From Vicinamibacterales bacterium (GTDB lineage: Bacteria; Acidobacteriota; Vicinamibacteria; Vicinamibacterales; SCN-69-37): DNA of 64,000 nucleotides. Shown one piece after another: positions 18,128-55,884 of the stretch. Position 1 is the first letter of the stretch, and every line of letters begins with the position of its first letter. The translations under genes were made by a program, and so were the position numbers. Below the pieces are notes generated by a model. It was not told the origin of the DNA, searched no databases, and saw only the letters and a list, made by a program, of their open reading frames with translations. The stretch covers positions 618,368 through 682,367 of the forward strand of contig JAURFE010000001.1 in NCBI GenBank assembly GCA_030827135.1. The letters are read 5' to 3'.

Positions 18128-18292
18128 GTTATTGAGGATTTGGGATTGAGGATTGAGGATTGGCAATTGCGGGATTGCAGATTGTGGGATTTATTGAGGG
18201 ATTGGAGGATTGGGGGATTGGAGGATTCAATCCCCCAATCCCCAATCCTACAATTGCCAATCCTCAATCCTAAATCCTCAATCCTCAATGAC
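18128..18292. repeat. Palindromic heptad-repeat element, family A, copy 2
   Basis: The element lies in the 303-bp gap between the helicase gene start and the end of the DUF2911 gene. The left arm begins GTTATTGAGGATTTGGGATT and runs to GGCAATTG; the right arm begins CAATTGCCAATCCTC and ends CAATCCTCAATGAC. The arms pair over about 40 bp with a few mismatches because the order of 6- and 7-bp units differs. The middle holds looser GGATTGGG units, themselves partly inverted. Nothing else is seen in the gap. Confidence 0.88.
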
Positions 18293-20252: not shown

Positions 20253-20364
20253 CCTCAATCCCTCAATCCCTCAATCCCTCAATCCCTCAATCCCTCAATC
20301 AATCCCACAATCAGCAATCAAACAATTGCCAATCCTCAATCCTCATTCCTCAATCCTCAATAAC
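20253..20364. repeat. One-armed CAATCCCT/CAATCCTC repeat, family A
   Basis: Seven tandem CTCAATCC units are followed by the right arm of the family A element (CAATTGCCAATCCTCAATCC, ending CCTCAATAAC). The left arm is absent, so the copy is half-sized. It fills the space between the convergent DUF4159 and TldD genes. Confidence 0.88.
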
Positions 20365-23424: not shown

Positions 23425-25161
23425 CTATCGTGCGCCACGATGCCGGCGCGACCACCACTCGACCGACAGCAGCCCGGCGAACGGCACGATCCACCATGGA
23501 GAGCGCATCGGATGTGTCGGAGTCGCCACTGGTGCCGCTGATACCGCGGTCGTGATACGAGCCGCCAACGTGCCGACATCCGCGATCGGGATCGCGTCGC
23601 CGCCGCGCGACGTGGCGAAAGCCGAGAGTAACGCGTGGTCGCCGGCTACGGGCCGATGGACACTGCCGGAATCCACGACGAGGAATTCCGCGACGTCGGG
23701 TTGCGGTGCAGGGCTGCCCGGGACGACCACGCTCAGCCGATACCTGCCAGGCACGTCAGGGGCGCGGAATTCGGCCCGGTAACGCCCGGCGCCATCCGGC
23801 CAGAGACGCACGGGTGTCACCGCACCTTCGGTGCTCTGCCACTCGGCCTGCGGAGTCGCGGTTTGCCCTGTCAGGTGCACACTCGCCGCGACGAACGTAC
23901 CCGGCTCGACCAGACGATCGCTGAGCCCCACCTCCACCGGTCGCGGGGTCGCCGCCGCTTCATCGCCGATCACCGATCGCCAGAACGCCGCAAACGCCGA
24001 TCCTTCGGCCGTGCGCGTGCGCCATCCGTCAATCGCGCTGTTCACCACCACACGACCGCCGCCCACCGGTGTCCGCCACACCGCACAGCGCCGTGCCGCG
24101 CCCATCGGCGAGAGACAACTGGTCATGGCCTCGGCGCCCGCCGGCCACCCGGCCGGCCAGAGGAACTCGCTCGCAGTCCATGAACCGACCGGCGACTCGA
24201 TGCGCTCGAGGGCCGGACGCCGTTCGTCGGTCCACGCGGAGACGCCCGTGAGCCGTGACAACCATGGCGCCCCTCCGGCGTCCGGCAGCACAACAACCGC
24301 GCCTTCGCGTGCACGCAGGTACGCCTCAAGCGCCTCGGCGGCGCGATCACCGACTGCGTCGGGCGCCGATACCAGCACGACATCAAACCCCGACAGGTCG
24401 TCAGCCCGGTCAAGCGTCGCGGGTGGCACGCCCGCCTCCGTCGTCACCCCGCGCGAGGTCACCGAGCGGACGACGACCTCGAAGCGGGGGTCCTCCTCGA
24501 GGACGCGCCGCACAAACGTGGCCGACCACGACGGTCGCGCTTCGTACGACAGGATGCGCCGGGTGGTTCTGACCACCTCAGTGGCCGCCTCCGCATACGC
24601 CTCAGGGCCGCCACCAATGCGGGCCGCGACCCGAATCCGCGCAAGGCCTTCACGCGAGGGCACAAACGTCAGGGCCGCCGTCGCCGTTCTCGCGCCGGCG
24701 GCGACTGTGACCTCCTGCGCATCCACCGGCACGTCGTCGGAAAACAAGGTGAACCGAACCGCCGCGGGCGCAGATGTCGCGCCCGGCGGCAGAGCGGCGT
24801 CAACCGTCAGGCGGCTGACCGCATCCAGCGGCACCCGGTCTCCGAGACGCAGGCGGCGAATTTCCGGCGCGTCTGCCGGCGCATCAGGGACCACGACGAA
24901 CGTCAGACCGTCCGGGGGGCGCCCCGGCGCCCGGCGGCCCACCAGCACGCGGGCCGCCGTGGCCGGCACCTCGTCCGTGTCGATCGTGACATCCGGTGCC
25001 AGCGCGTCCCTCACGCGCGCGACATCTGCCGGCGTCGCCCCAGCCCCCCGCAACACGACCGCGCGTGCGGGGGCGGGGCGGGCCGCCATCCACGCGGGAT
25101 CGATCACCGCGACGATGGCGATCACGAGGGCGGCCATGCGACAGACGCGATCGAGGATCAC
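23425..25161 (-). CDS. Membrane-anchored protein of the MoxR operon, glutamine-amidotransferase-like
   Basis: A 578-aa protein with one N-terminal hydrophobic segment (MAALVIAIVAVIDPAWMA) and one near the C-terminus (SPWWIVPFAGLLSVEWWSRR), so most of it lies outside the cytoplasm. The middle (about 205-330) has alternating strands such as ILSYEARPSWSATFVRRVLE, FDVVLVSAPDAVGDRAAEAL and EGAVVVLPDAGGAPWLSRLT, a class I amidotransferase-like Rossmann pattern without an obvious catalytic Cys. The C-terminal part has a beta-sandwich (RYRAEFRAPDVPGRYRLSVV). Such proteins are regular members of MoxR/DUF58/BatA clusters. GTG 25161 overlaps the DUF4175 stop by GTGA. Function unknown. Confidence 0.75.
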   Translation of the reverse strand: MILDRVCRMAALVIAIVAVIDPAWMAARPAPARAVVLRGAGATPADVARVRDALAPDVTIDTDEVPATAARVLVGRRAPGRPPDGLTFVVVPDAPADAPEIRRLRLGDRVPLDAVSRLTVDAALPPGATSAPAAVRFTLFSDDVPVDAQEVTVAAGARTATAALTFVPSREGLARIRVAARIGGGPEAYAEAATEVVRTTRRILSYEARPSWSATFVRRVLEEDPRFEVVVRSVTSRGVTTEAGVPPATLDRADDLSGFDVVLVSAPDAVGDRAAEALEAYLRAREGAVVVLPDAGGAPWLSRLTGVSAWTDERRPALERIESPVGSWTASEFLWPAGWPAGAEAMTSCLSPMGAARRCAVWRTPVGGGRVVVNSAIDGWRTRTAEGSAFAAFWRSVIGDEAAATPRPVEVGLSDRLVEPGTFVAASVHLTGQTATPQAEWQSTEGAVTPVRLWPDGAGRYRAEFRAPDVPGRYRLSVVVPGSPAPQPDVAEFLVVDSGSVHRPVAGDHALLSAFATSRGGDAIPIADVGTLAARITTAVSAAPVATPTHPMRSPWWIVPFAGLLSVEWWSRRHRGAR

Positions 25162-27224
25162 CGGCCACCTCCCCGTCGCTGCGCATCAGACAGTGCGCCC
25201 TTCAGCCGTTGCGCGTCCGCATCAGGTCCGGCAGACGATGACGGAGCGGCGATGCGCAGGATGGCGGTGATGCGCGCGGCGACGTCACCGAGCGCCGCGC
25301 GTCCGTCACGCTCACGCCGGCCGGTGATGGCTTCATTGGCCTGCGACAACAGCGCCACGATATCGACGACCGCGCGATCACCAGGGGCCGCTTTCAGCAG
25401 CGACTCGGTGACGGCCCCGATCGTCGCCGCGTCCGACTCGGCGAGCATGGCCCTGGACGCCAGCCCGCCAAGCGCGACCAATGCGCCCCGCAGGGCGACG
25501 ACGTGCGGGGGCACCGCCGGATCCGCGACTGCGCGCCGTGACCGGGCCAGGTCGGACATCGTGCCTGTGAGGCGGCGGCTGTCGTCGATGGATTCCCGCT
25601 GTGTGAGGGTGCGCAGAATAAAGCGGCGGCGGGACAACGCACGCTGCATGGCCTCGAGCGCGGACTTCTCCGCTTCGAGGGCCGGCCTGAGGTTGCCGTC
25701 GGTGAGTTCCGCAGCGGCACGACTCATGTCGCGAATGGCCCGGCCGAGGTCCGCCCGACCGGAGTTGTCGAGCCGGCCGTCGGAGATCTCGTGTTCGTGC
25801 GCCGCTTCGACGAACTCGTCTTCGAAGTGCCCGCCGGTCATGAAGACCAGTTCGGCCCGCACGGATCGTTGTTCGGCCGCAAGCCTCAGCGACTCTTCAT
25901 ATATCGCCTCCGTCGATGGCGCAGGACGCGCGGCGGCCTTCGCGATCAGGCGCTCGGTCTTGAGGATCACCATCTGCTGGCTGAGCGCGTACTTGTCCTG
26001 GGTGTCGTCGATCGCAAACCCTTCGGCCATGGCCTCGCTGTTGGACACGATCTCGACGATGAACGCGTCCGACTCGACGGGAGTGCTGCCGGGACGATGG
26101 TCGGTGGCGACGGCGCGATAGACGACCATGTCACCGACCTCGAGTGTGAGCGCCGGAAGCGACAAGGTGCCGGTACCGCGCCACTGGCGGCCGTCGGGCC
26201 GGGTCAGCGTCAGCGGCACCTCGCCTTCGGTGAACGTGAACGACTCCCCGACGCCTGCGACTTTCGTGTAGGCGAGTTGCAGCGTGCGCAGGCCCAGATC
26301 GTCGGTGGCCTCGACGGTGAGATCGAGTGTGGTGGTCGCTTCGCGAAGAAAGATGTCCTTGCCTGGCACGGTCACCCGCGGCACCGGCGGACGGTCCTGG
26401 GTGGCCGTCACACCCATCAGCCGCCGCGGGCCCGCGGCGGCGTCTGCGCCGAAGGGCGTGACCGCGATGAATCCGTCTGCGGCGATCGTGACGGTGGACG
26501 CAAAATGCCCGTCGTCGGCGCGGGCGGCGTCAGTCGCGCCATCGGCGGTGTCGATCCGCATGCGTGCGGCGCTGCCCGAGACCACCACGTCGACGCGGCT
26601 GCCCGCCAGCGCGGTGATCCGCGCTGGATCGTTCATCGTCTGCGGCGGTTGCGCGGCGTAGGCGGGTGGTGTGATGGTGACGCGCACGCCGGAGACGACG
26701 GGCGTGGAGGAAGCCTCGGTCGCCAGATCAGGGAGCAGCCGTTCGACGGCGGGAACCGTGACGAGAAATGCCGCACCGCACACCGCGGCGGCGCCGACAC
26801 ACCGCGCGGCGGGACCTGCCCACGGCCAGAGTGAGGAGATGTCCACACGCTGCGCGGCCCGAGCGGCATCGTGTTGCACCACCCGACAAATCGTCACCGG
26901 CGTCGGGCCGGCGTCTTTCAGCAGTGCCGTAGCCGTCACCAGCAGGTTCCTGCACTCGGGGAATCGCGCTTCCACAGCGGCGGCCGAAGCCCGCTCTGAT
27001 GCGTCGAATCGGAACATCGCAGTCAGTGCGCCGGTGAGTGCGAGGGTCACGGCCGCGAGCGCTGCGGTCATCGTCGCGACGCCGTTGAGCAGGAGCGCGA
27101 GTACGGCGAGGGTGGCGACGCCGAGCCCCACTGTCGCGCCGGCGATCAGCGCCTGCGCCCGACGCACGCGGGTCACGCGCGCGAGGAAGGCCACGACCGT
27201 CCGGGACTCAGGCCACTCGCGCAT
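25158..27224 (-). CDS. DUF4175-like membrane protein
   Basis: The 688-aa protein has two early hydrophobic segments (ALIAGATVGLGVATLAVLAL with MTAALAAVTLALTGALTAMF) and another around 150-165. The following region has a beta-rich part ending MVVYRAVATDHRPGSTPVES, which matches DUF4175 proteins, and then a long helical region (about 400-688) with heptad-like charged helices. The assigned family is found next to MoxR, DUF58 and BatA genes and is thought to scaffold a cell-envelope complex. ATG 27224 overlaps the upstream stop by 17 bases; the next gene overlaps by 4 bases. Confidence 0.8.
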   Translation of the reverse strand: MREWPESRTVVAFLARVTRVRRAQALIAGATVGLGVATLAVLALLLNGVATMTAALAAVTLALTGALTAMFRFDASERASAAAVEARFPECRNLLVTATALLKDAGPTPVTICRVVQHDAARAAQRVDISSLWPWAGPAARCVGAAAVCGAAFLVTVPAVERLLPDLATEASSTPVVSGVRVTITPPAYAAQPPQTMNDPARITALAGSRVDVVVSGSAARMRIDTADGATDAARADDGHFASTVTIAADGFIAVTPFGADAAAGPRRLMGVTATQDRPPVPRVTVPGKDIFLREATTTLDLTVEATDDLGLRTLQLAYTKVAGVGESFTFTEGEVPLTLTRPDGRQWRGTGTLSLPALTLEVGDMVVYRAVATDHRPGSTPVESDAFIVEIVSNSEAMAEGFAIDDTQDKYALSQQMVILKTERLIAKAAARPAPSTEAIYEESLRLAAEQRSVRAELVFMTGGHFEDEFVEAAHEHEISDGRLDNSGRADLGRAIRDMSRAAAELTDGNLRPALEAEKSALEAMQRALSRRRFILRTLTQRESIDDSRRLTGTMSDLARSRRAVADPAVPPHVVALRGALVALGGLASRAMLAESDAATIGAVTESLLKAAPGDRAVVDIVALLSQANEAITGRRERDGRAALGDVAARITAILRIAAPSSSAGPDADAQRLKGALSDAQRRGGGR

Positions 27225-28404
27225 GAGGCCCTCCTGCGCTGTCTGCCGGCGCGGCCACCTGAACCGGTGGCCGCGCGCGCCTGACTCCTGTCTCGACGGC
27301 CAACAGGATCAGGACAAGCGCCCAGATCCAGCGACCGAGGGGCTGGGGTTGCCCGCTGCCTGGCGCCAGGTCAGCGCGCGGCTCGCGCTGCCAGGCATTT
27401 ACGACTTCGTCGGGCAGGACGTCGGGCTCGCGTTCCGCGAGTGTGACGGCGGGCGCCGCCGCCGCGCGCAGCGCCCGCGCGATCAGCGCGGCGGCCTCAA
27501 CGGAATCGGGGGGAAGGGTGGAGAGGACAAGGAGACCGGAAAAGACGTCGGGAGGCCTTTTTTCGTTGGACAAGAAGAAAAAGCCTCCCGACGCCTTTTC
27601 CGGGGTCATTTCATTCCCGACGATCTGGGCCGCAAGGTCGTACATCGCGGGCGTATCGATCGGTTGTGCGGTGTCCTTGAGCGCGGCGTATTCGGGGGCG
27701 CCTTCAAACGCGATCACGATCCCGGCGGCGATTTCCGGCGAAATCGCCGCCGCGCTCGTGTCGCCCACCACGGACCGCGCCGCGGCTTCCGCCGCGGCGG
27801 CGCCATGCACCCGCACCGTTCCCGCGCCTGCCGGCGCGGGCACGGCGCCCGTCACCCCCACGCGCACAAACCGCCGGCCTGCCGACGCCGGCAGCGTGTC
27901 CAGGTCGGCCTCCGACATCGCGCCGACCTGGAAGTCCGAGATCACGACGACGTCCCCGGCGCCTGGCTGCGTCCGCAGCCAGGCACCGGCCTGCGCGAGT
28001 CCCGCGCGCAGATCCCCCGCGCGGATGACGACGTGCGCGTCCACGTCGGCGTCCGCGCGCGCCGTCTCGACCGCCGCGTCGACGACGCCGGCGGACGCGC
28101 GCGCCATGCTCGCGGACGTGTCGACGACGACCGCCCGCGGCGGGCGACCGCCCGGCGCGGGCGGGGTCACGAGCGCCGGTTGCGCCAGCGCCGCCGCGGC
28201 CGCGGCGACGATGGCGCAGCGGAGCGCGAGCAGGGCGACATCGGTCAGGCGGTGACGCCGGACCGATGTCGGGGGGGTGCGCGGCAGGAAGCGGACCGTC
28301 GGGAACACCCGGCGGTCTGCTTCGTGCCGCGCGAGCCAGTGCACCAGCACGGGCAGCGCCACTGACACCCCACCGATGAGCGCCAGCGGCGCGAGCCACG
28401 TCAC
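27208..28404 (-). CDS. BatA-like membrane protein with degenerate von Willebrand A domain
   Basis: A 398-aa protein. Residues 1-75 match the BatA N-terminal module: MTWLAPLALIGGVSVALPVL, VLVHWLARHEADRRVFPTVR and LTDVALLALRCAIVAAAAAA, two membrane helices. A VWA-like domain begins at PPRAVVVDTSASMARAS (DxSxS of the MIDAS motif), with DVVVISDFQVG later. A C-terminal helix is at about 365-383 (GRWIWALVLILLAVE). Residues about 267-290 (KASGGFFFLSNEKRPPDVFS) are encoded by a long inverted repeat and look like an in-frame insertion. Start GTG 28404 overlaps the DUF58 stop by GTGA. Confidence 0.85.
   Translation of the reverse strand: MTWLAPLALIGGVSVALPVLVHWLARHEADRRVFPTVRFLPRTPPTSVRRHRLTDVALLALRCAIVAAAAAALAQPALVTPPAPGGRPPRAVVVDTSASMARASAGVVDAAVETARADADVDAHVVIRAGDLRAGLAQAGAWLRTQPGAGDVVVISDFQVGAMSEADLDTLPASAGRRFVRVGVTGAVPAPAGAGTVRVHGAAAAEAAARSVVGDTSAAAISPEIAAGIVIAFEGAPEYAALKDTAQPIDTPAMYDLAAQIVGNEMTPEKASGGFFFLSNEKRPPDVFSGLLVLSTLPPDSVEAAALIARALRAAAAPAVTLAEREPDVLPDEVVNAWQREPRADLAPGSGQPQPLGRWIWALVLILLAVETGVRRARPPVQVAAPADSAGGPHARVA
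27537..27604. repeat. In-frame palindrome inside the BatA-like gene
   Basis: The left arm (27537-27557, CCGGAAAAGACGTCGGGAGG-C) and right arm (27584-27604, GCCTCCCGACGCCTTTTCC-GG) are inverted repeats of 21 bp with one mismatch. Inside, CTTTTTT and AAAAA tracts lengthen the stem, and a 14-base spacer forms the loop. On either strand it resembles a factor-independent terminator stem with flanking T runs, yet it lies inside an open reading frame and keeps it open. It encodes a loop of about 23 residues in the VWA-containing protein. Confidence 0.75.
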
Positions 28405-29288
28405 GACGGCTGCCCTCGCTTCAACAGATACGCGCGCAACGCGTCCGACGGCTTCTCATCGGTCGTCACCAAGGCGTAGTCGAGACCATCACGACGGGCA
28501 CCCGTCCGCCAGCGCTCCAGAAACGCGGCCATGTGATCGCGATACGCGCCGCGCGCGGCCCGCGCATCCACCACGACGCGCGCCCCCGACTCCAGATCCT
28601 CGAACTCCACATCGGACGTAAACGGCAGGTCCACTTCATCACGCGACACCACCTGCAGCACCGCGACGTCATGTCCACGCCGCGCCACGCGACGCAGTTC
28701 CACACGCGTCGCGTCTTCCTCGTCATAAAAATCGGAGATGGCCAGGATGACGCCGCGCCGGCGCAACAAGTCAGCCGCGCGCGTGAGCACCCTGGCGGGA
28801 TCCCACGTGGCCGACGGCGTCAGGCGTTCGAGCTGCGCCAGCAACAACCGCAAGTGCCCTCGCCCACCGCGCGCCGGCACCCACACCAGTTTCTCCCCCT
28901 GCATCGTCATCAACCCGACCGCGTCGCCGCCGCCGATGATCAGATGTGCGAGCGCGGCCGCCATCAGAACGGCATACCGAAACTTCGAGAGACCACTGCC
29001 GGATGCATAGTCCATCGACGCACTGGTATCCACCACGAGCACAACGGACATGTTGGTGGTCTCGCGGAACTGGCGCGTGTAGAGCCGGTCGGTGCGCGCG
29101 AGCACCTTCCAGTCGAGATACTTGAGGTCGTCGCCGGGCCGGTAGGCGCGGTACTGGCTGAACTCGTTGCTGAAGCCGTGGAACGGGCTGCGGTGTTGGC
29201 CGCTGCGTGCGCCTTCGACAATCAGGCGCGCGGCAAGTTCGAGGTCGTCGATCGCTGCAACGACGGCAGGATCGAGCAGGACGGTCAC
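28401..29288 (-). CDS. DUF58 protein (VWA-like)
   Basis: The 295-aa cytoplasmic protein matches DUF58: SPFHGFSNEFSQYRAYRPGD, DDLKYLDWKVLARTDRLYTR and RQFRETTNMSVVLVVDTSAS, followed by MDYA. The last contains the DxSxS metal-binding motif of a VWA domain, and IISDF-like LAISDFYDEEDA supplies the later acidic site. DUF58 proteins work with MoxR ATPases as chaperone-type pairs for cofactor or complex assembly. The gene starts at GTG 29288, which overlaps the moxR stop by GTGA, and ends overlapping the next gene by the same 4 bases, so translation is coupled along the operon. Confidence 0.9.
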   Translation of the reverse strand: MTVLLDPAVVAAIDDLELAARLIVEGARSGQHRSPFHGFSNEFSQYRAYRPGDDLKYLDWKVLARTDRLYTRQFRETTNMSVVLVVDTSASMDYASGSGLSKFRYAVLMAAALAHLIIGGGDAVGLMTMQGEKLVWVPARGGRGHLRLLLAQLERLTPSATWDPARVLTRAADLLRRRGVILAISDFYDEEDATRVELRRVARRGHDVAVLQVVSRDEVDLPFTSDVEFEDLESGARVVVDARAARGAYRDHMAAFLERWRTGARRDGLDYALVTTDEKPSDALRAYLLKRGQPS

Positions 29289-30271
29289 GGCCTGACAGAT
29301 TCCAACAGGCGGCTGATGACCTGATCCGGATCAATGCCGTCAGCTTCAGCCTGGAAGTTCAGCAGCAGCCGATGACGCAGCACCGGGGCCGCCACCGCGC
29401 GAATGTCGTCGAGCGCCGGCACACTGCGCCCGTCGATCAATGCCAGCGCCTTCGCGCCCAGAAGTAGCGACTGCCCCGCGCGCGGACCTGCGCCCCACTT
29501 CACCCACTCGCGGATGACGGGTGGCGCGGTGTCATCGGCGGGCCGCGTCGCGCGCACCAGCCGCAGAGCGTATGACACGACGTTGTCTGCCGCCGGCAGG
29601 TCGCGCACCAGCGCACGCGTCGCTTCGAGTTCGGCACCCGTCGCCACGGGCGCGATAATCGCCGCCGCACCGCTCGTCGTTTCCGACAGAATGCGGCGCT
29701 CTTCGTCGAGGCCCGGGTAGTCGATCACAACATTAAACATGAAGCGATCGAGCTGGGCTTCAGGCAGTGGATGTGTGCCTTCCTGCTCGATCGGGTTCTG
29801 GGTCGCGAGCACGAACAGCGGGCGCGCGAGGGGATACCGGGTGCCGCCGACCGTGACCTGGAATTCCTGCATGGCTTCGAGCAAGGCGGCCTGGGTCTTG
29901 GGCGGTGTACGGTTGATTTCGTCGGCGAGGATGATGTTCGCGAAGATCGGGCCGGGGATGAACCGAATCTCCCGTTTGCCCGTGCTGACGTCTTCTTCGA
30001 TCACGTCGGTGCCCAGAATGTCGGACGGCATCAGATCCGGCGTGAACTGGATGCGGCTGAACTTGAGGTCGACCGCCTGCGCCAGCGTCTTGATCAGCAG
30101 CGTCTTGGCAAGCCCCGGCACGCCCCGCAGCAGCACGTGACCGCCGGCGAGCAGGCAGATGAGCACTTCGCGCAGGACCTGCCGCTGGCCGATGATCACG
30201 CGCGAGACTTCCTGCTCCAGGCGCCCGACCAGCGCGGCGGACTCTTCAAACGGCTGACGTACGCTCGACAT
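29285..30271 (-). CDS. MoxR-family AAA+ ATPase
   Basis: The 328-aa ATPase shows Walker A GVPGLAKTLL, Walker B IILADEINR, sensor 1 VLATQNP, the arginine finger region LPEAQLDRFMFNV and a C-terminal lid. It is preceded by the N-terminal helix VGRLEQEVSRVIIGQRQVLR. These are the AAA_3 (MoxR) hallmarks. MoxR proteins remodel or activate partner complexes, usually through the VWA proteins encoded next to them, as here. It is first in the operon; GATAAT on the minus strand lies eight bases upstream of ATG 30271 and may be a -10 box. The downstream DUF58 gene overlaps by GTGA. Confidence 0.93.
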   Translation of the reverse strand: MSSVRQPFEESAALVGRLEQEVSRVIIGQRQVLREVLICLLAGGHVLLRGVPGLAKTLLIKTLAQAVDLKFSRIQFTPDLMPSDILGTDVIEEDVSTGKREIRFIPGPIFANIILADEINRTPPKTQAALLEAMQEFQVTVGGTRYPLARPLFVLATQNPIEQEGTHPLPEAQLDRFMFNVVIDYPGLDEERRILSETTSGAAAIIAPVATGAELEATRALVRDLPAADNVVSYALRLVRATRPADDTAPPVIREWVKWGAGPRAGQSLLLGAKALALIDGRSVPALDDIRAVAAPVLRHRLLLNFQAEADGIDPDQVISRLLESVRP

Positions 30272-30799: not shown

Positions 30800-31579
30800 A
30801 TGCCCCGATTCCGCACAACATCCGCCGCCCTCCTGCTTCTGGCCGCCGCGCTCTCGACCGCCTGCAACCTGCAGATTGGGACCGGTGTCGAGGCCAGGGA
30901 CACCTGGACTCGCAGCTACCCCATCACCGCCACCGGGTCGTTCTCGATCATCAATGACAACGGGCGAATCACCATCGATGCGGCCGACATCCAGACCATC
31001 GAAGTCACCGCTGAGCGGATCGTCAAGGCCGGCACCGAGGAAGCGGCCAATGAACAGTTGAAGTTGTGGGAGATTCAGGAACAGGTCGGCGTCGACAGCG
31101 TCTCGCTCGACAGTTCGACACGCGGTCTCACCATCAACGTGTCGCGCAACGCCCACTACACCGTGCGGGTGCCCCGCGGTGTGGCGGTCACGCTGACGTC
31201 GTCAAACGGCGACATCGCCGTGACCGGACTCACCGGCGCGTTCAGCGCGTCGGCCTCCAACGGCAGAATCGTCGGCACTGAACTGCATGGCAGCGCGAAG
31301 GCGTCCACGACCAACGGCGTGATTCACCTCACGATGGCCGCGATTGGCGCTGACGGTGTGTCCGCCGAAACCACCAACGGGCAGGTGATCGTGACGTTGC
31401 CGCGCTCGGCCAACGCCAACCTCACGGCCCGCGTCACCAACGGCGCCATCTCACACGAAAATCTGGATGTGCAGATCGTCGAATCATCACGCCGGCGTCT
31501 CGACGGCCGCATCGGTACGGGTGGCCCCACCGTCCGCGTCGAAACCACCAACGGTGAGGTTCGGCTCATCGGACGTTAG
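30800..31579 (+). CDS. DUF4097 beta-helix lipoprotein
   Basis: A 259-aa protein starting MPRFRTTSAALLLLAAALST, with lipobox LSTAC (C22), so it is probably lipid-anchored. The body is a repetitive right-handed beta fold of the DUF4097/adhesin type: GSFSIINDNGRITIDAADIQ, VTLTSSNGDIAVTGLTG, SASASNGRIVGTELHG, KASTTNGVIHLTMA, SAETTNGQVIVTLP, ARVTNGAISHEN and VETTNGEVRLIG. Each rung carries an SNG or TNG turn. The function is unknown; family members often accompany stress or anti-sigma systems. Its TAG overlaps the TAA of the convergent acyltransferase gene by bases 31576-31579. Confidence 0.88.
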   Translation: MPRFRTTSAALLLLAAALSTACNLQIGTGVEARDTWTRSYPITATGSFSIINDNGRITIDAADIQTIEVTAERIVKAGTEEAANEQLKLWEIQEQVGVDSVSLDSSTRGLTINVSRNAHYTVRVPRGVAVTLTSSNGDIAVTGLTGAFSASASNGRIVGTELHGSAKASTTNGVIHLTMAAIGADGVSAETTNGQVIVTLPRSANANLTARVTNGAISHENLDVQIVESSRRRLDGRIGTGGPTVRVETTNGEVRLIGR

Positions 31580-32433
31580 CGTCGTCGTTTCTTGATCTGC
31601 GCGAGCAGCTTTGTCAGCACGGACCCGGGCCCGACTTCTTCGAACTCGGGCTCGGCCTGGTCCAGCAGGAACACCATCGACTCCAGCCAGCGCACGGAAT
31701 TGCCGATCTGCTCCGACAACGTCTGCCGCACGAGATCGCCCTCGTAGGGCTTGCCGCTCACGTTTGAAATGACCGGAATCGCCGGCGCATTGAAGTCGAT
31801 GTCCTTCAGGAACGCCGCAAACGTGGCCTGCGCGTCGCGCATGTAGCGCGAGTGGAAAGGCGCGCTCACGTTCAGCGGAATGTAGGCGCGCACACCGGCC
31901 GCCTCGAACTGCTCCTTGACGATGGCGAGGTCGTCCTTCGGGCCGGCAATGACGGTCTGGTCGTAGGAGTTGAAGTTGGCGACATCAATCCGGCGGCCGG
32001 CTTCGGTGCTGCTGAGCACTTCCTGGATTCTGATGGGTTCCAGTCCGATGACCGCGGCCATGCCGCCGCCAGTGACCTTCCCCATCATGTCGCCGCGGCG
32101 CTGCACCATCCGCAGGCCGGTCGCAAAGTCGAAGACCCCTGCCGCCTGAAGCGCGTTGTATTCGCCCAGACTGTGCCCGGCGACAAAATCAGGCGCGGAG
32201 GCGCCCCCGTCCTGCCGCGCGCGATACGTCAACGCGTTCACCGTATACAGCGCCGGCTGGGTGAACTGCGTCAGCCCAAGTTCTCCGCGCGGGTCGTCCA
32301 CGCACAATTCACGAATCGAGTACCCCAGCACCGCGTCCGCCTGTGTCGTCCAATCGGCGTACCGATCGAACAAGTCCGCGCCCATGCCTTTTGACTGCGA
32401 GCCCTGACCGGGGAACAAACAGATCTTCGTCAT
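31576..32433 (-). CDS. Malonyl-CoA:ACP acyltransferase, trans-AT-like
   Basis: This 285-aa enzyme starts MTKICLFPGQGSQSKGMG. The nucleophile motif GHSLG (S88), R113 (VQRRG) and H194 in VSAPFHSRYM are present. FabD from fatty acid synthesis has VSVPSH at the His motif. The form found here (VSAPFHSRYM, preceded by VRAYIPLN) resembles stand-alone trans-acyltransferases of polyketide systems. It would load malonyl or a similar unit on an acyl carrier protein. No ketosynthase or carrier gene is in the window. The divergent neighbour is a Sfp-type phosphopantetheinyl transferase, which supports an acyl-carrier role. ATG 32433 is preferred over an ATG nine bases upstream. Confidence 0.85.
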   Translation of the reverse strand: MTKICLFPGQGSQSKGMGADLFDRYADWTTQADAVLGYSIRELCVDDPRGELGLTQFTQPALYTVNALTYRARQDGGASAPDFVAGHSLGEYNALQAAGVFDFATGLRMVQRRGDMMGKVTGGGMAAVIGLEPIRIQEVLSSTEAGRRIDVANFNSYDQTVIAGPKDDLAIVKEQFEAAGVRAYIPLNVSAPFHSRYMRDAQATFAAFLKDIDFNAPAIPVISNVSGKPYEGDLVRQTLSEQIGNSVRWLESMVFLLDQAEPEFEEVGPGSVLTKLLAQIKKRRR

Positions 32434-32456
32434 GCACGACATGGTACTTACGCTGG

Positions 32457-32505
32457 TGGTCCAGGGTCCAGGGGTCCAGGAGTCCAGGGGTCCAGGAGTC
32501 GAGGG
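32457..32505. repeat. GGTCCAGG/GGAGTCCA simple repeat
   Basis: Six copies of an 8-bp unit (GGTCCAGG, GGAGTCCA, GGGGTCCA) occupy the space between the acyltransferase gene and the transferase gene. The unit is shared with 242-299 and 12733-12802. If translation of the transferase began at ATG 32432 or 32441, the repeat would be read as VQGPGVQESRGPGVEGPDG, which is why the GTG at 32531 is preferred. Confidence 0.7.
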
Positions 32506-32530
32506 GCCTGACGGGATACCATGCTCTGGC

Positions 32531-33271
32531 GTGTTGCCTGCTCCCTCCTTCGGTCACCTCGTCATCGCCTGGACGGATGTCCGTCTGCTTCCGGGGGACA
32601 CGGCAGCCGAGTGGGTGCGGTCGCTGCCTGACGATGAACAGGCGCGATTCGCGAAGTACCGGCATGCGCCAAGTGCACACGAGTTCCTTGTGGGCCGGTT
32701 GCTGGCGCGGCGATGGCTTGCCGCGCTGACCGGCACGGCTGCCGCCGGGATTGCGCTGGTGGAGGGGCCGCGCGGCCGGCCGGCGATTGCGGCGCCGGCC
32801 ACGTCACTCCAGTTCAACCTCGCGCATTCAGGCGGCGTGGTGGCCTGCATCCTGTCCGACGGACGGGAGGCCGGCGTGGATGTCGAGTATCTCGACCGAA
32901 GGCCTGTGCCGGCCGACCTGTGGCACCGGTTCTGCGCCCCCTCCGAGATCGCGGATATCGAGGCGCAGCCCCTCGACGCGCGGCAGCATCGGTTCCTCAC
33001 GTACTGGACATTAAAAGAGGCCTATCTGAAGGCCCGGGGCCTCGGCATCGCCGTCGAGTTGGCCGACGTGGCGTTTTCCGTGACCGGCCTTCATCCGACA
33101 GTGGCGTTTCGGGAGTCACTCGACGGCACTCCTGCCGACTGGGCATTCGGAATGTTCGAGGCCGGGCCCCGCCACCTCATCTCCTGGGCGACGCCACAGG
33201 CTCCGGGCACCCCGCGCCCGGCGGTAGACATCCACTTCGTCGCCGTGGACACCCTGGATCCAGCGTCCTGA
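32531..33271 (+). CDS. Sfp-type 4'-phosphopantetheinyl transferase
   Basis: The protein has 246 aa from GTG 32531. It transfers phosphopantetheine from CoA to a serine of acyl or peptidyl carrier proteins. Motifs: FNLAHS (residues 95-100), GVDVE (115-119, Mg2+ ligands) and TYWTLKEAYLKARG (about 158-170, the WxxKEA motif). The N-terminal half includes SLPDDEQARFAKYRHAPSAH and HEFLVGRLLARRWL, as in Sfp/Gsp-type enzymes. The length fits the two-domain Sfp group. The stop TGA overlaps the ATG of the next gene by one base (TGATG), so it is coupled to the PptH-like phosphoesterase. Confidence 0.9.
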   Translation: MLPAPSFGHLVIAWTDVRLLPGDTAAEWVRSLPDDEQARFAKYRHAPSAHEFLVGRLLARRWLAALTGTAAAGIALVEGPRGRPAIAAPATSLQFNLAHSGGVVACILSDGREAGVDVEYLDRRPVPADLWHRFCAPSEIADIEAQPLDARQHRFLTYWTLKEAYLKARGLGIAVELADVAFSVTGLHPTVAFRESLDGTPADWAFGMFEAGPRHLISWATPQAPGTPRPAVDIHFVAVDTLDPAS

Positions 33272-34185
33272 TGCGTCTCCTCGCAGTCAGCGACCTCCAC
33301 CTCGGACACGCGCGCAATCGCGAGGCCCTGACCGGGATGCGGTCCCATCCGGACGACTGGCTCATTCTGGCAGGGGACATCGGCGAGAAGCCCGCGCATC
33401 TCGTGTTCGCGCTCGAACAACTCGCTCCGCGATTCGCACAACTCATCTGGGTCCCGGGCAACCACGACCTGTGGTGCCCACCCGATGCCGCCGATCGCAC
33501 ACGCGGCCAGGCACGCTACGAGGAACTCGTCGCCATCTGCCGCACCTTCGGCGCGCTCACGCCGGAGGATCCGTACGCACAGTTTGGCGCGATCTACCCC
33601 AGCGCGCCCTACAAGGGCGGCGCCCATCCGGCCAGCCGCCCACCCGCCCCACCACCCATCTACGTGTGCCCGTTGTTCTGCCTCTACGACTACACGTTTC
33701 ATCCGCGCGGCATCACCGATCCGGTCGCGTGGGCAAAAGAGACCGGCGTCGTGTGTGGTGACGAATGGATGTTGTCGCCCGCCCCGTGGCCGTCACGCAC
33801 GGCGTGGTGTCACGCGCGCGTGGATGCGACCGAAGCGCGGCTCCGCGCGCTCCCGGGTGACGCGTCGACGATCCTGATCAGCCATTGGCCGCTTCGTTAC
33901 GATCTCGCCCGGCCACCACGCGTCCCCCGCTTTTCTGTGTGGTGCGGCACGACACGCACCGAACACTGGCCCACGCAGTTTCGCGCGCGCGCCGTGGTCA
34001 GCGGCCATCTGCACATGCGCACGTCGTTGATGCGCGACGATGTGCCTCATCTTGAAGTGTCGCTGGGCTATCCGCGCGACTGGACACACCATCGCGGCGT
34101 TGATTTTTACCTGCGCGAGATCCTGCCGAACACGGACGCACGTTTTGTTCCTGCGCGGGATCCGTTTATGATTCCGTATTCATGA
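33271..34185 (+). CDS. Metallophosphoesterase resembling PptH (ACP hydrolase)
   Basis: A 304-aa cytoplasmic calcineurin-like phosphoesterase. Metal ligands: D8 and H10 (SDLHLGH), D36 (AGDIGE), N64/H65 (PGNHD), H205 (ISHWPL), H246 and H248 (GHLHMR). Stretches DDWLILAGDIGEKPAH, QLIWVPGNHDLW, LYDYTFHPRGITDP, AWCHARVDATEARL and FSVWCGTTRTEHWPTQF fit, from memory, mycobacterial PptH, which removes phosphopantetheine from carrier proteins and shares an operon with PptT. Here the upstream overlapping gene is a phosphopantetheinyl transferase. Residues about 110-130 are a Pro-rich insert encoded by simple-repeat-like DNA. The hydrolase activity is inferred from this similarity and gene order. Confidence 0.85.
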   Translation: MRLLAVSDLHLGHARNREALTGMRSHPDDWLILAGDIGEKPAHLVFALEQLAPRFAQLIWVPGNHDLWCPPDAADRTRGQARYEELVAICRTFGALTPEDPYAQFGAIYPSAPYKGGAHPASRPPAPPPIYVCPLFCLYDYTFHPRGITDPVAWAKETGVVCGDEWMLSPAPWPSRTAWCHARVDATEARLRALPGDASTILISHWPLRYDLARPPRVPRFSVWCGTTRTEHWPTQFRARAVVSGHLHMRTSLMRDDVPHLEVSLGYPRDWTHHRGVDFYLREILPNTDARFVPARDPFMIPYS

Positions 34186-35210
34186 GGCGACTGCGCGTCC
34201 TACTCCTCATCCATCACTACCTGGTCCCGCCCGACGATGTGTCGGGAGTTGACACCTCCACACAAACGTGGCGGACCGAGTACGACGTGTTGAAAACGCT
34301 GCGTGACGACCTGAAGCACGACGTGCGGGTGCTCGGCGTCGCCGACGAACTCACGCCGATCAAACAGGCGGCCGAAGACTTCAAGCCGCACATCGTCTTC
34401 AATTTGCTGGAAGCCTTCCACGAAGTCGGCACGTACGACCAGAACGTCGTGTCCTACCTTGAGCTGTTGCGGCTGCCGTATACCGGCTGCAACCCCAGAG
34501 GCATGATCCTCGCGCGCGACAAGGCGCTGTCGAAAAAGCTGCTGCAGTACCACCGCATCTCGGTGCCGGAGTTCGCGGTCGCAAAACGCGGACGCAAATT
34601 CAAGCTCCCGAAACGCATGGACTACCCGCTGATCGTCAAGTCGCTCACCGAAGAGGCCTCGATTGGCATTTCGCAGGCATCCGTCGTCGAGGACGAACGG
34701 CGGCTGATGGAACGTATCCAGTTCATCCACGACTCCATCGCCACCGACGCCATCATCGAGCAGTACATCGAAGGCCGCGAGCTCTACTGCTGCATCGTCG
34801 GCAACGAACGTCTGCAGGTGTATCCGATCTGGGAAATGTTCTTCGAGAAAATGACGGACCGGCAGCACCGGATCGCCACCTCCCGCGTGAAGTGGAGCAG
34901 CAAGTATCAGGACAAGGCCGGCATCATGACCGGCGCAGCCGAACCGTTGCCGGACGGGGTCATGGAACGGCTGCCCGCGATGTGCAAACGCGTCTACCGG
35001 TCATTGATGCTCAGTGGATACGCCCGCATCGACATGCGTCTCGACGGTGCCGGCCGCGTGTGGGTGATCGAAGCCAATCCGAATCCCCAGATCGCCAACG
35101 GCGAAGACTTCGCCCGCGCCGCCGACATGGCGGACATCAGTTACCCGCAGCTCATTCAGCGGATTCTGACGGCAGGCCTTCGGTGGGAGCCGGAGCGAAT
35201 GGGGCAATGA
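34182..35210 (+). CDS. ATP-grasp ligase, D-Ala-D-Ala ligase-like
   Basis: The 342-aa cytoplasmic protein has an ATP-grasp fold: an N-terminal Rossmann-like part (MRRLRVLLLIHHYLVPPDD, HIVFNLLEAFHEVGTYDQNV), ATP-binding DYPLIVKSLTEEASIGISQA and IIEQYIEGRELYCCIVGNER, and the metal site YARIDMRLDGAGRVWVIEAN with PNPQIANGEDF. This layout is close to Ddl and to uncharacterised ligases that form peptide-like bonds on small substrates. A Ddl role in cell-wall synthesis is not supported by neighbours. ATGA overlaps the phosphoesterase stop, so it is the third gene of a coupled operon. Its true product is unknown. Confidence 0.85.
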   Translation: MRRLRVLLLIHHYLVPPDDVSGVDTSTQTWRTEYDVLKTLRDDLKHDVRVLGVADELTPIKQAAEDFKPHIVFNLLEAFHEVGTYDQNVVSYLELLRLPYTGCNPRGMILARDKALSKKLLQYHRISVPEFAVAKRGRKFKLPKRMDYPLIVKSLTEEASIGISQASVVEDERRLMERIQFIHDSIATDAIIEQYIEGRELYCCIVGNERLQVYPIWEMFFEKMTDRQHRIATSRVKWSSKYQDKAGIMTGAAEPLPDGVMERLPAMCKRVYRSLMLSGYARIDMRLDGAGRVWVIEANPNPQIANGEDFARAADMADISYPQLIQRILTAGLRWEPERMGQ

Positions 35211-50662: not shown

Positions 50663-50840
50663 GTTATTGAGGATTGAGGATTTGGGATTGAGGATTGGCA
50701 ATTGCTGGATTTCGGATTGAGGGATTGACTCTAATCCCTCAATCCCTCAATCCCTCAATCCCTCAATCCCTCAATCAATCCCACAATCGGCAATTGGACA
50801 ATTGCCAATCCTCAATCCTCGATCCTCAATCCTCAATAAC
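50663..50840. repeat. Palindromic heptad-repeat element, family A, copy 3
   Basis: Left arm 50663-50704 (42 bp, starting GTTATTGAGGATTGAGGATT) and right arm 50799-50840 (ending CAATCCTCAATAAC) pair with two or three mismatches. Between them six CTCAATCC units run in tandem. The element fills the gap between the TonB receptor stop and the ABC exporter start, both on the minus strand. Terminal sequences and size (178 bp) equal copy 1 at 14697-14874. Confidence 0.9.
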
Positions 50841-54228: not shown

Positions 54229-54236
54229 GAATGGGG

Positions 54237-54347
54237 CAATGAGGCAATGGGGCAATGGGGCAATGGAATTCCCGGAATTCCTGGAATTGCATTGCCCAAA
54301 TGCCTCATTGCCTCATTCCATTGCCCCATTGCCCCATTGCCTCATTG
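54237..54347. repeat. CAATGGGG palindromic repeat, family B, copy 2
   Basis: Arms 54237-54269 and 54315-54347 are a perfect 33-bp inverted repeat (CAATGAGGCAATGGGGCAAT and onward). The 45-bp centre contains GGAATTCCCGGAATTCC and CTGGAATTGCATTGCCC. The element begins eight bases past the zincin stop and ends 14 bases before the M28 start. Sequence units are CAATGGGG and CAATGAGG, unrelated to family A. Confidence 0.92.
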
Positions 54348-55712: not shown

Positions 55713-55884
55713 TGACGCAATGGGGCAATGGGGCAATGGGGCAATGGGGCAATGGAATTTTCGTAATGCCTCAATGACTCAATGGAATTCTCAGAATTTC
55801 AGGAATTGCATTGAACCATTGAGGCATTGCGGGCATTCCATTGCCTCATTGCCTCATTGCCTCATTGCCCCATTGCCTCATTGA
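55713..55884. repeat. CAATGGGG/CATTGCCT palindromic repeat, family B, copy 3
   Basis: Left part has four GGGGCAAT units (from 55717), the right part five CATTGCCT or CATTGCCC units (55833-55884). The arms pair over about 33 bp with several T/C exchanges. The centre contains GGAATTCTCAGAATTTCAGG, like the centre of copy 2. The right edge supplies the stop codon of the ChaN-like gene (CAATGA on the minus strand). Confidence 0.88.

Follow-up and report, generated by a model that had tools for sequence, protein, structure and literature searches.

Organization of the locus

The window, i.e., the whole stretch of 64,000 nucleotides that was analysed, comes from an acidobacterium of the order Vicinamibacterales and contains three consecutive genes, each overlapping the next, for a 4'-phosphopantetheinyl transferase (PPTase, P0002), a calcineurin-like phosphoesterase (P0001) and an ATP-grasp ligase (P0003) (Table 1). 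The stop codon of the PPTase gene (TGA, 33269–33271) and the start codon of the phosphoesterase gene (ATG, 33271–33273) have base A33271 in common in the sequence TGATG, just as the original prediction had described. Likewise, the stop codon of the phosphoesterase gene (TGA, 34183–34185) and the ATG of the ATP-grasp gene overlap by four bases (ATGA). The fabD gene is divergent from the PPTase gene, an arrangement that is kept in the family to which the window belongs. An in-frame ATG is present at 32432, upstream of the GTG of the PPTase gene; since the extension that it would produce passes through the GGTCCAGG repeat, translation of the PPTase probably starts at GTG 32531 and not at this ATG.

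Table 1. Features of the window, with positions counted from its first base.
Feature	Position	Strand	Remarks
MoxR-type ATPase, DUF58-like and BatA-like membrane proteins	25158..30271	-	consecutive genes
FabD (malonyl-CoA:ACP transacylase)	31576..32442	-	TIGR00128, 330 bits (cut-off 261)
Short tandem repeat GGTCCAGG	32458..32506		about 6 copies; FabD-PPTase intergenic region
Sfp-type 4'-phosphopantetheinyl transferase (PPTase, P0002)	32531..33271	+	GTG start, 246 aa
PptH-family phosphopantetheinyl hydrolase homologue (P0001, predicted)	33271..34185	+	304 aa
ATP-grasp ligase (P0003), relative of D-Ala-D-Ala ligases	34182..35210	+	Dala_Dala_lig_C
Arrays of 7-8 base units	18131..18289, 20253..20361, 50666..50837, 54230..54347, 55717..55883		

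Other features were seen elsewhere in the window. Units of 7-8 bases (ATTGAGG, CAATCCT, AATGGGGC, CATTGCCC) form short arrays, often two inverted ones that face each other with a few tens of bases between them. The MoxR/DUF58/BatA-like genes, recognised from the translations of the reading frames, form a common type of cluster.

The transferase belongs to the Sfp type

P0002 carries the ACPS domain (PF01648, 63.6 bits) and an AASDHPPT_N domain (34 bits, above its cut-off), and its match to 4PPT_N (15.7 bits) falls below the cut-off of 27. It has the two-lobed length and the GVDxE and WxxKEA motifs that characterise Sfp-type enzymes (FNLAHSGG, GVDVE and WTLKEA in this protein), and its best matches in the PDB are Sfp and human AASDHPPT. 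By these sequence features P0002 is an Sfp-type PPTase. It was also considered as an orthologue of the mycobacterial PptT; this was rejected in view of the 4PPT_N score and of the PDB matches. The original prediction had proposed a comparison with PptT (Rv2794c), and a relationship to PptT was not borne out: no PptT or PptAb chain appeared among the PDB matches of P0002 at E<=0.01, and its N-terminal domain is that of Sfp/AASDHPPT.

Full-length homology of the phosphoesterase to PptH

The only Pfam matches of P0001 are to Metallophos families, with PF00149 as its domain. A phmmer search of the PDB aligned residues 3-288 with 6unc_A, the crystal structure of M. tuberculosis PptH (E=8e-65, 222 bits), and the next match had an E value of 0.84. 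In a common sequence alignment the two proteins are 44.7% identical. An AlphaFold2 model built on P0001 together with 46 homologues (mean pLDDT 94) superimposes on 6unc with a Z score of 37.1 and an rmsd of 2.2 Å over 270 residues (44% identity); the second-best structural match is Rv0805, with Z 16.3. The comparison with Rv2795c thus revealed a full-length homologue, and the stretches that the original prediction had listed as shared with mycobacterial PptH turned out to be real: the window protein has WVPGNHDLW and FSVWCGTT where M. tuberculosis PptH has WVPGNHELW and FSLWCGTT. Four PptH-specific blocks (DWLIxAGD, WVPGNHxLW, FSxWCGT and EVSxGYP) are common to both proteins.

Residues D8, H10, D36, N64, H205, H246 and H248 of P0001 are invariant across 47 homologues and are the same in 6unc. 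From general knowledge of the superfamily, we take these seven residues to be the ligands of a binuclear metal centre. The histidines of the GHLH motif are residues 249 and 251 in the chain numbering of 6unc, and their match to the H246N mutation of inactive M. tuberculosis PptH is uncertain.

Membership of P0001 in the PptH family, with hydrolase activity as the predicted function, is therefore well supported by its sequence and its modelled fold. A closer relationship to some other phosphoesterase family was looked for and none was found, Rv0805 being the next structural match. A generic metallophosphoesterase is unlikely in view of the 6unc match and of the distance in Z score to the next structure. 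An ACP hydrolase of the AcpH type fails, given that the Pfam matches are restricted to Metallophos families and that the PF04336 domain is absent, and a class III phosphodiesterase such as Rv0805 or GpdQ fails at Z values of about 16 versus 37 for PptH.

Homologues of PptH in at least eight phyla

PptH has been described as restricted to mycobacteria (PMC8557913). A scan of species genomes yielded at least 583 confirmed relatives, and the best 80 of these include Alpha- and Gammaproteobacteria, records titled as other Pseudomonadota, Myxococcota, Chloroflexota and Actinomycetota, as well as Acidobacteriota, Gemmatimonadota, Planctomycetota and Latescibacterota. Because homologues are present in at least eight phyla, the view of PptH as a mycobacterial protein fails, as judged from sequence. 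Strong matches were found in approx. 17 of 297 sampled genomes of Acidobacteriota, 18 of 296 of Actinomycetota and 3 of 299 of Pseudomonadota. In the samples of the last two phyla, members of the PptH family score above 300 bits and other metallophosphoesterases below 45 bits.

Some individual records deserve a comment. L051, titled Comamonas sp. KCTC 72670, comes from a 9 Mb genome and its PptH falls inside the Myxococcaceae, so that the name of the organism looks wrong. In one genome (G001, contig C81) the homologue is broken into two reading frames (L018/L019), by a frameshift or an assembly error. Two genomes of Actinomycetota (G505, L193/L206; G538, L188/L205) have two copies of PptH each, one beside a PptT-type PPTase and the other unpaired.

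Recurrent pairing of PptH with a PPTase

Among the 40 nearest relatives of the window's genome, the two genes are adjacent in 18 of the 18 genomes that bear PptH, and hence the pairing is not due to chance. For the wider comparison, a set of 121 non-redundant PptH loci was used, and PptH was counted as paired when a PPTase gene was located within 400 bases. A PPTase gene lies beside PptH at 68 of these loci; three gene orders and two subfamilies of PPTase are represented. With Sfp-type enzymes, the PPTase gene precedes PptH on the same strand at 24 loci, as in the window, follows it at 12 and is convergent with it at 13; with PptT-type enzymes, the PPTase gene follows PptH at 17 loci, M. tuberculosis itself not counted, and two other arrangements were found at a single locus each. 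By our own estimate, based on the one to six PPTase genes present per genome, adjacency by chance would be expected at approx. 0.1% per locus.

The PF01648 domain was detected in 59 of the 60 partners scanned, with an N-terminal domain that is Sfp-like in 40 and PptT-like in 19; our best guess is that the negative partner is L080, which is truncated at a contig end. In a tree of PptH proteins the pair arrangements are spread over several separate clades, and the pair was probably assembled anew on several occasions. At the four loci closest to M. tuberculosis PptH in this tree (L178-L181), a PptT-type gene comes after PptH. The pairing is not obligatory, since 53 of the 121 loci have no adjacent PPTase. 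At these unpaired loci no other recurring neighbour was seen, the most frequent being aminotransferase and FAD-oxidoreductase families (each 4 of 75 neighbours). AcpS was found at 0 of the 121 loci with its profile, which does detect AcpS elsewhere in distant phyla. The original prediction had anticipated such a pair in a Gram-negative, non-actinobacterial genome; the host is a member of the Acidobacteriota, and the scan of bacterial genomes that it called for placed the pair in many phyla.

A single PPTase and the absence of AcpS

The genome of the window (completeness 100) has one gene with a PF01648 domain, i.e., that of P0002; neither AcpS (TIGR00516) nor AcpH (PF04336) was found in it. 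It also has one discrete FAS-type ACP (L117, 1477-1863, - strand), encoded inside a fabG-acp-fabF block. As P0002 is the sole PPTase found and AcpS is absent, P0002 must load the fatty-acid ACP. A second carrier domain (L118) is found in a protein that combines it with an AMP-dependent acyl ligase and a region resembling an acyltransferase, and by the same logic it is also a candidate substrate of the pair. In Synechocystis, a lone Sfp-type PPTase serves fatty-acid synthesis, and attempts to delete it failed (PMC5605751).

Within the order of the window, AcpS is present in 0 of 11 genomes that bear PptH versus 16 of 20 that do not (Fisher p=1.6e-5, not corrected for ancestry); four PptH-free genomes of the order thus also have no AcpS. 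Within families f2 and f9 the contrasts point the same way. In a set of 17 named genomes, the non-actinobacterial ones fall into two groups: AcpS is absent from all six in which PptH is paired with a PPTase (Stappia, Roseibium, Fulvimarina, Tahibacter, Polyangium and Roseospira) and present in all seven in which PptH is unpaired (p=6e-4, again not corrected for ancestry). The cultured Stappia and Roseibium have one PPTase each, and it adjoins PptH. The pair and AcpS occur in the same genome in the acidobacterial family f33 and in two Actinomycetota, and these cases indicate that loss of AcpS is not required. In another genome (G007, contig C10), an AcpS-like PPTase domain (L263) is fused behind an apparent carrier-protein domain (weak profile match).

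Proposed function of the pair

It is likely that the overlapping genes encode two enzymes that oppose each other on ACP, the PPTase loading 4'-phosphopantetheine (Ppt) and the PptH homologue stripping it. The basis of this explanation is the homology, the fold, the conservation of the metal site, the recurrent pairing, and the absence of another PPTase and of AcpH. According to the proposed mechanism, P0002 would transfer Ppt from CoA to a serine of the fatty-acid ACP and of one other carrier domain, and P0001, as a binuclear metallophosphodiesterase, would cut the serine-Ppt phosphodiester to give apo-ACP and free Ppt. The overlapping reading frames would yield both products in a fixed proportion, and the net effect would be a controllable holo/apo ratio. 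Most likely, the two enzymes together determine whether ACP is in its holo or its apo form, through a hydrolase activity and a physiological role that we infer for P0001; this enzyme would presumably release Ppt with ACP as its substrate, in control or in repair. Against this explanation, M. tuberculosis that has lost PptH shows no phenotype in mice, and PptH was not found to take part in CoA salvage there (PMC8557913); the 53 unpaired loci also count against it.

We favour the version in which P0001 would act in repair, clearing ACP to which a promiscuous Sfp-type PPTase has wrongly attached Ppt arms that carry an acyl group or are blocked in some other way. Sfp-type PPTases accept acyl-CoAs, and for this reason repair of mis-primed ACP is preferred, regulation of the holo/apo ratio being also possible. 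M. tuberculosis PptH releases Ppt from AcpM, from PKS13-ACP and from the ACPs of E. coli, K. pneumoniae and P. aeruginosa, and it removes an arm with a thiol-linked biotin tag (PMC8557913); this last result indicates that cargo on the thiol is no block, and supports the repair version. By extension, PptH could be a widespread carrier-protein repair enzyme that counteracts the promiscuity of Sfp/PptT-type transferases, coupled to an Sfp-type PPTase especially where this transferase has taken the place of AcpS as sole activator of fatty-acid synthesis, a generalization that we consider possible but less likely than not.

The same enzyme could also serve to turn down fatty-acid synthesis globally, or to release Ppt for CoA, during starvation. 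That fabD and the sole PPTase that loads ACP lie back to back agrees with this idea, as does the increased turnover of Ppt from holo-ACP at low CoA, as far as the work of Jackowski and Rock is cited in PMC8557913. In M. tuberculosis, however, PptH was not seen to contribute to CoA salvage, and the freed Ppt is reported to be excreted and not recoverable (PMC8557913). A starvation role is quite possible, short of probable. It is improbable that P0001 has drifted to another substrate, such as CoA or dephospho-CoA, nucleotides or glycerophosphodiesters, with its adjacency to the PPTase reflecting a wider link to CoA/Ppt metabolism. The calcineurin-like superfamily covers many different functions, Rv0805 and GpdQ come next among the structural neighbours of P0001, and M. 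tuberculosis PptH binds the generic substrate bis-pNPP poorly (PMC8557913), from which it follows that specificity is not readable from the fold; nevertheless, the PptH-specific blocks are kept as in the mycobacterial enzyme, the gap in scores in Pseudomonadota and Actinomycetota (>300 versus <45 bits) is wide, and the recurring partner is a PPTase and not a gene of the CoA pathway.

The ATP-grasp gene had been proposed as a possible third member of the system, and its ligase would in that case also modify the carrier protein or Ppt. Its four-base overlap with the PptH homologue and the PPTase-PptH-ATP-grasp order, shared by most genomes in the family of the window, would be in keeping with this proposal, but the linkage is limited to that family: in the set of 40 nearest relatives, the pairs of other families showed no ATP-grasp gene as a partner, and in five genomes that bear PptH (G007, G015, G021, G027 and G037) the gene is located elsewhere. 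Moreover, it is present in 33 of the 40 relatives (E<=1e-20), many of them without PptH, which marks it as a bystander, and its product is similar to D-Ala-D-Ala ligases. A three-gene system is thus very improbable, and the ATP-grasp gene is probably a transcriptional neighbour of the pair that stands outside the system.

Removal of Ppt from carrier proteins was discovered in 1967 and its physiological role has been unexplained since (PMC8557913). Across phyla, PptH recurs next to a PPTase in independent arrangements, and its non-actinobacterial pairs are found mostly in genomes that have no second PPTase or that lack AcpS; together this is a strong clue to the function of Ppt hydrolases. If the widespread repair role were true, it would answer what these hydrolases are for; Stappia and Roseibium, for example, offer tractable, non-pathogenic systems for the study of PptH function.

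Comparison with known systems

In the literature searched, which covered few subscription papers, we found neither PptH homologues nor the pair described for Gram-negative bacteria, and likewise no mention of a link between the pair and the absence of AcpS. The same reaction that is predicted for P0001, i.e., removal of Ppt from holo-ACP with divalent metals, is carried out by AcpH of E. coli (ACP_PD, PF04336), an enzyme with an HD-type fold that is unrelated to P0001. Conversely, Rv0805 and GpdQ share with P0001 the calcineurin-like fold and the binuclear metal motif, but they match its model far more weakly (Z about 16, 15-22% identity). In the nystatin P1 cluster of Pseudonocardia, the metallophosphoesterase NypZ and the PPTase NypF belong to one antibiotic gene cluster (PMC2942817), and they serve as a lead to a possible further pair.

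In the Actinomycetota the pair is already partly known, from PptT/PptH of M. tuberculosis and from Streptomyces. It was reported in 2014 that, in most Streptomyces genomes, the gene for a SCO6673-like PPTase is overlapped by an upstream gene for a calcineurin-like phosphoesterase "of unknown function" (PMC3909215). As in the window, a PPTase gene and a PF00149 gene overlap in one probable transcription unit (PMC3909215); the gene order is the reverse. Homologues of PptH were found in Streptomyces (L110, L112), and the phosphoesterase of S. ambofaciens is a candidate member of the same family.

The closest parallel is the PptH (Rv2795c)/PptT (Rv2794c) pair of M. tuberculosis, with a homologous full-length hydrolase that has the same fold and metal-site residues, encoded adjacent to a PPTase gene on the same strand. 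The idea of a PptT/PptH-like pair at the present locus therefore holds for the hydrolase half, whereas the transferase is of the Sfp type and not of the PptT/EntD type, and its gene is placed first, in the reversed order. M. tuberculosis also differs in that it has AcpS as well (PMC8557913), while in the window's genome, that of a Gram-negative acidobacterium, the PPTase of the pair is the only one found.
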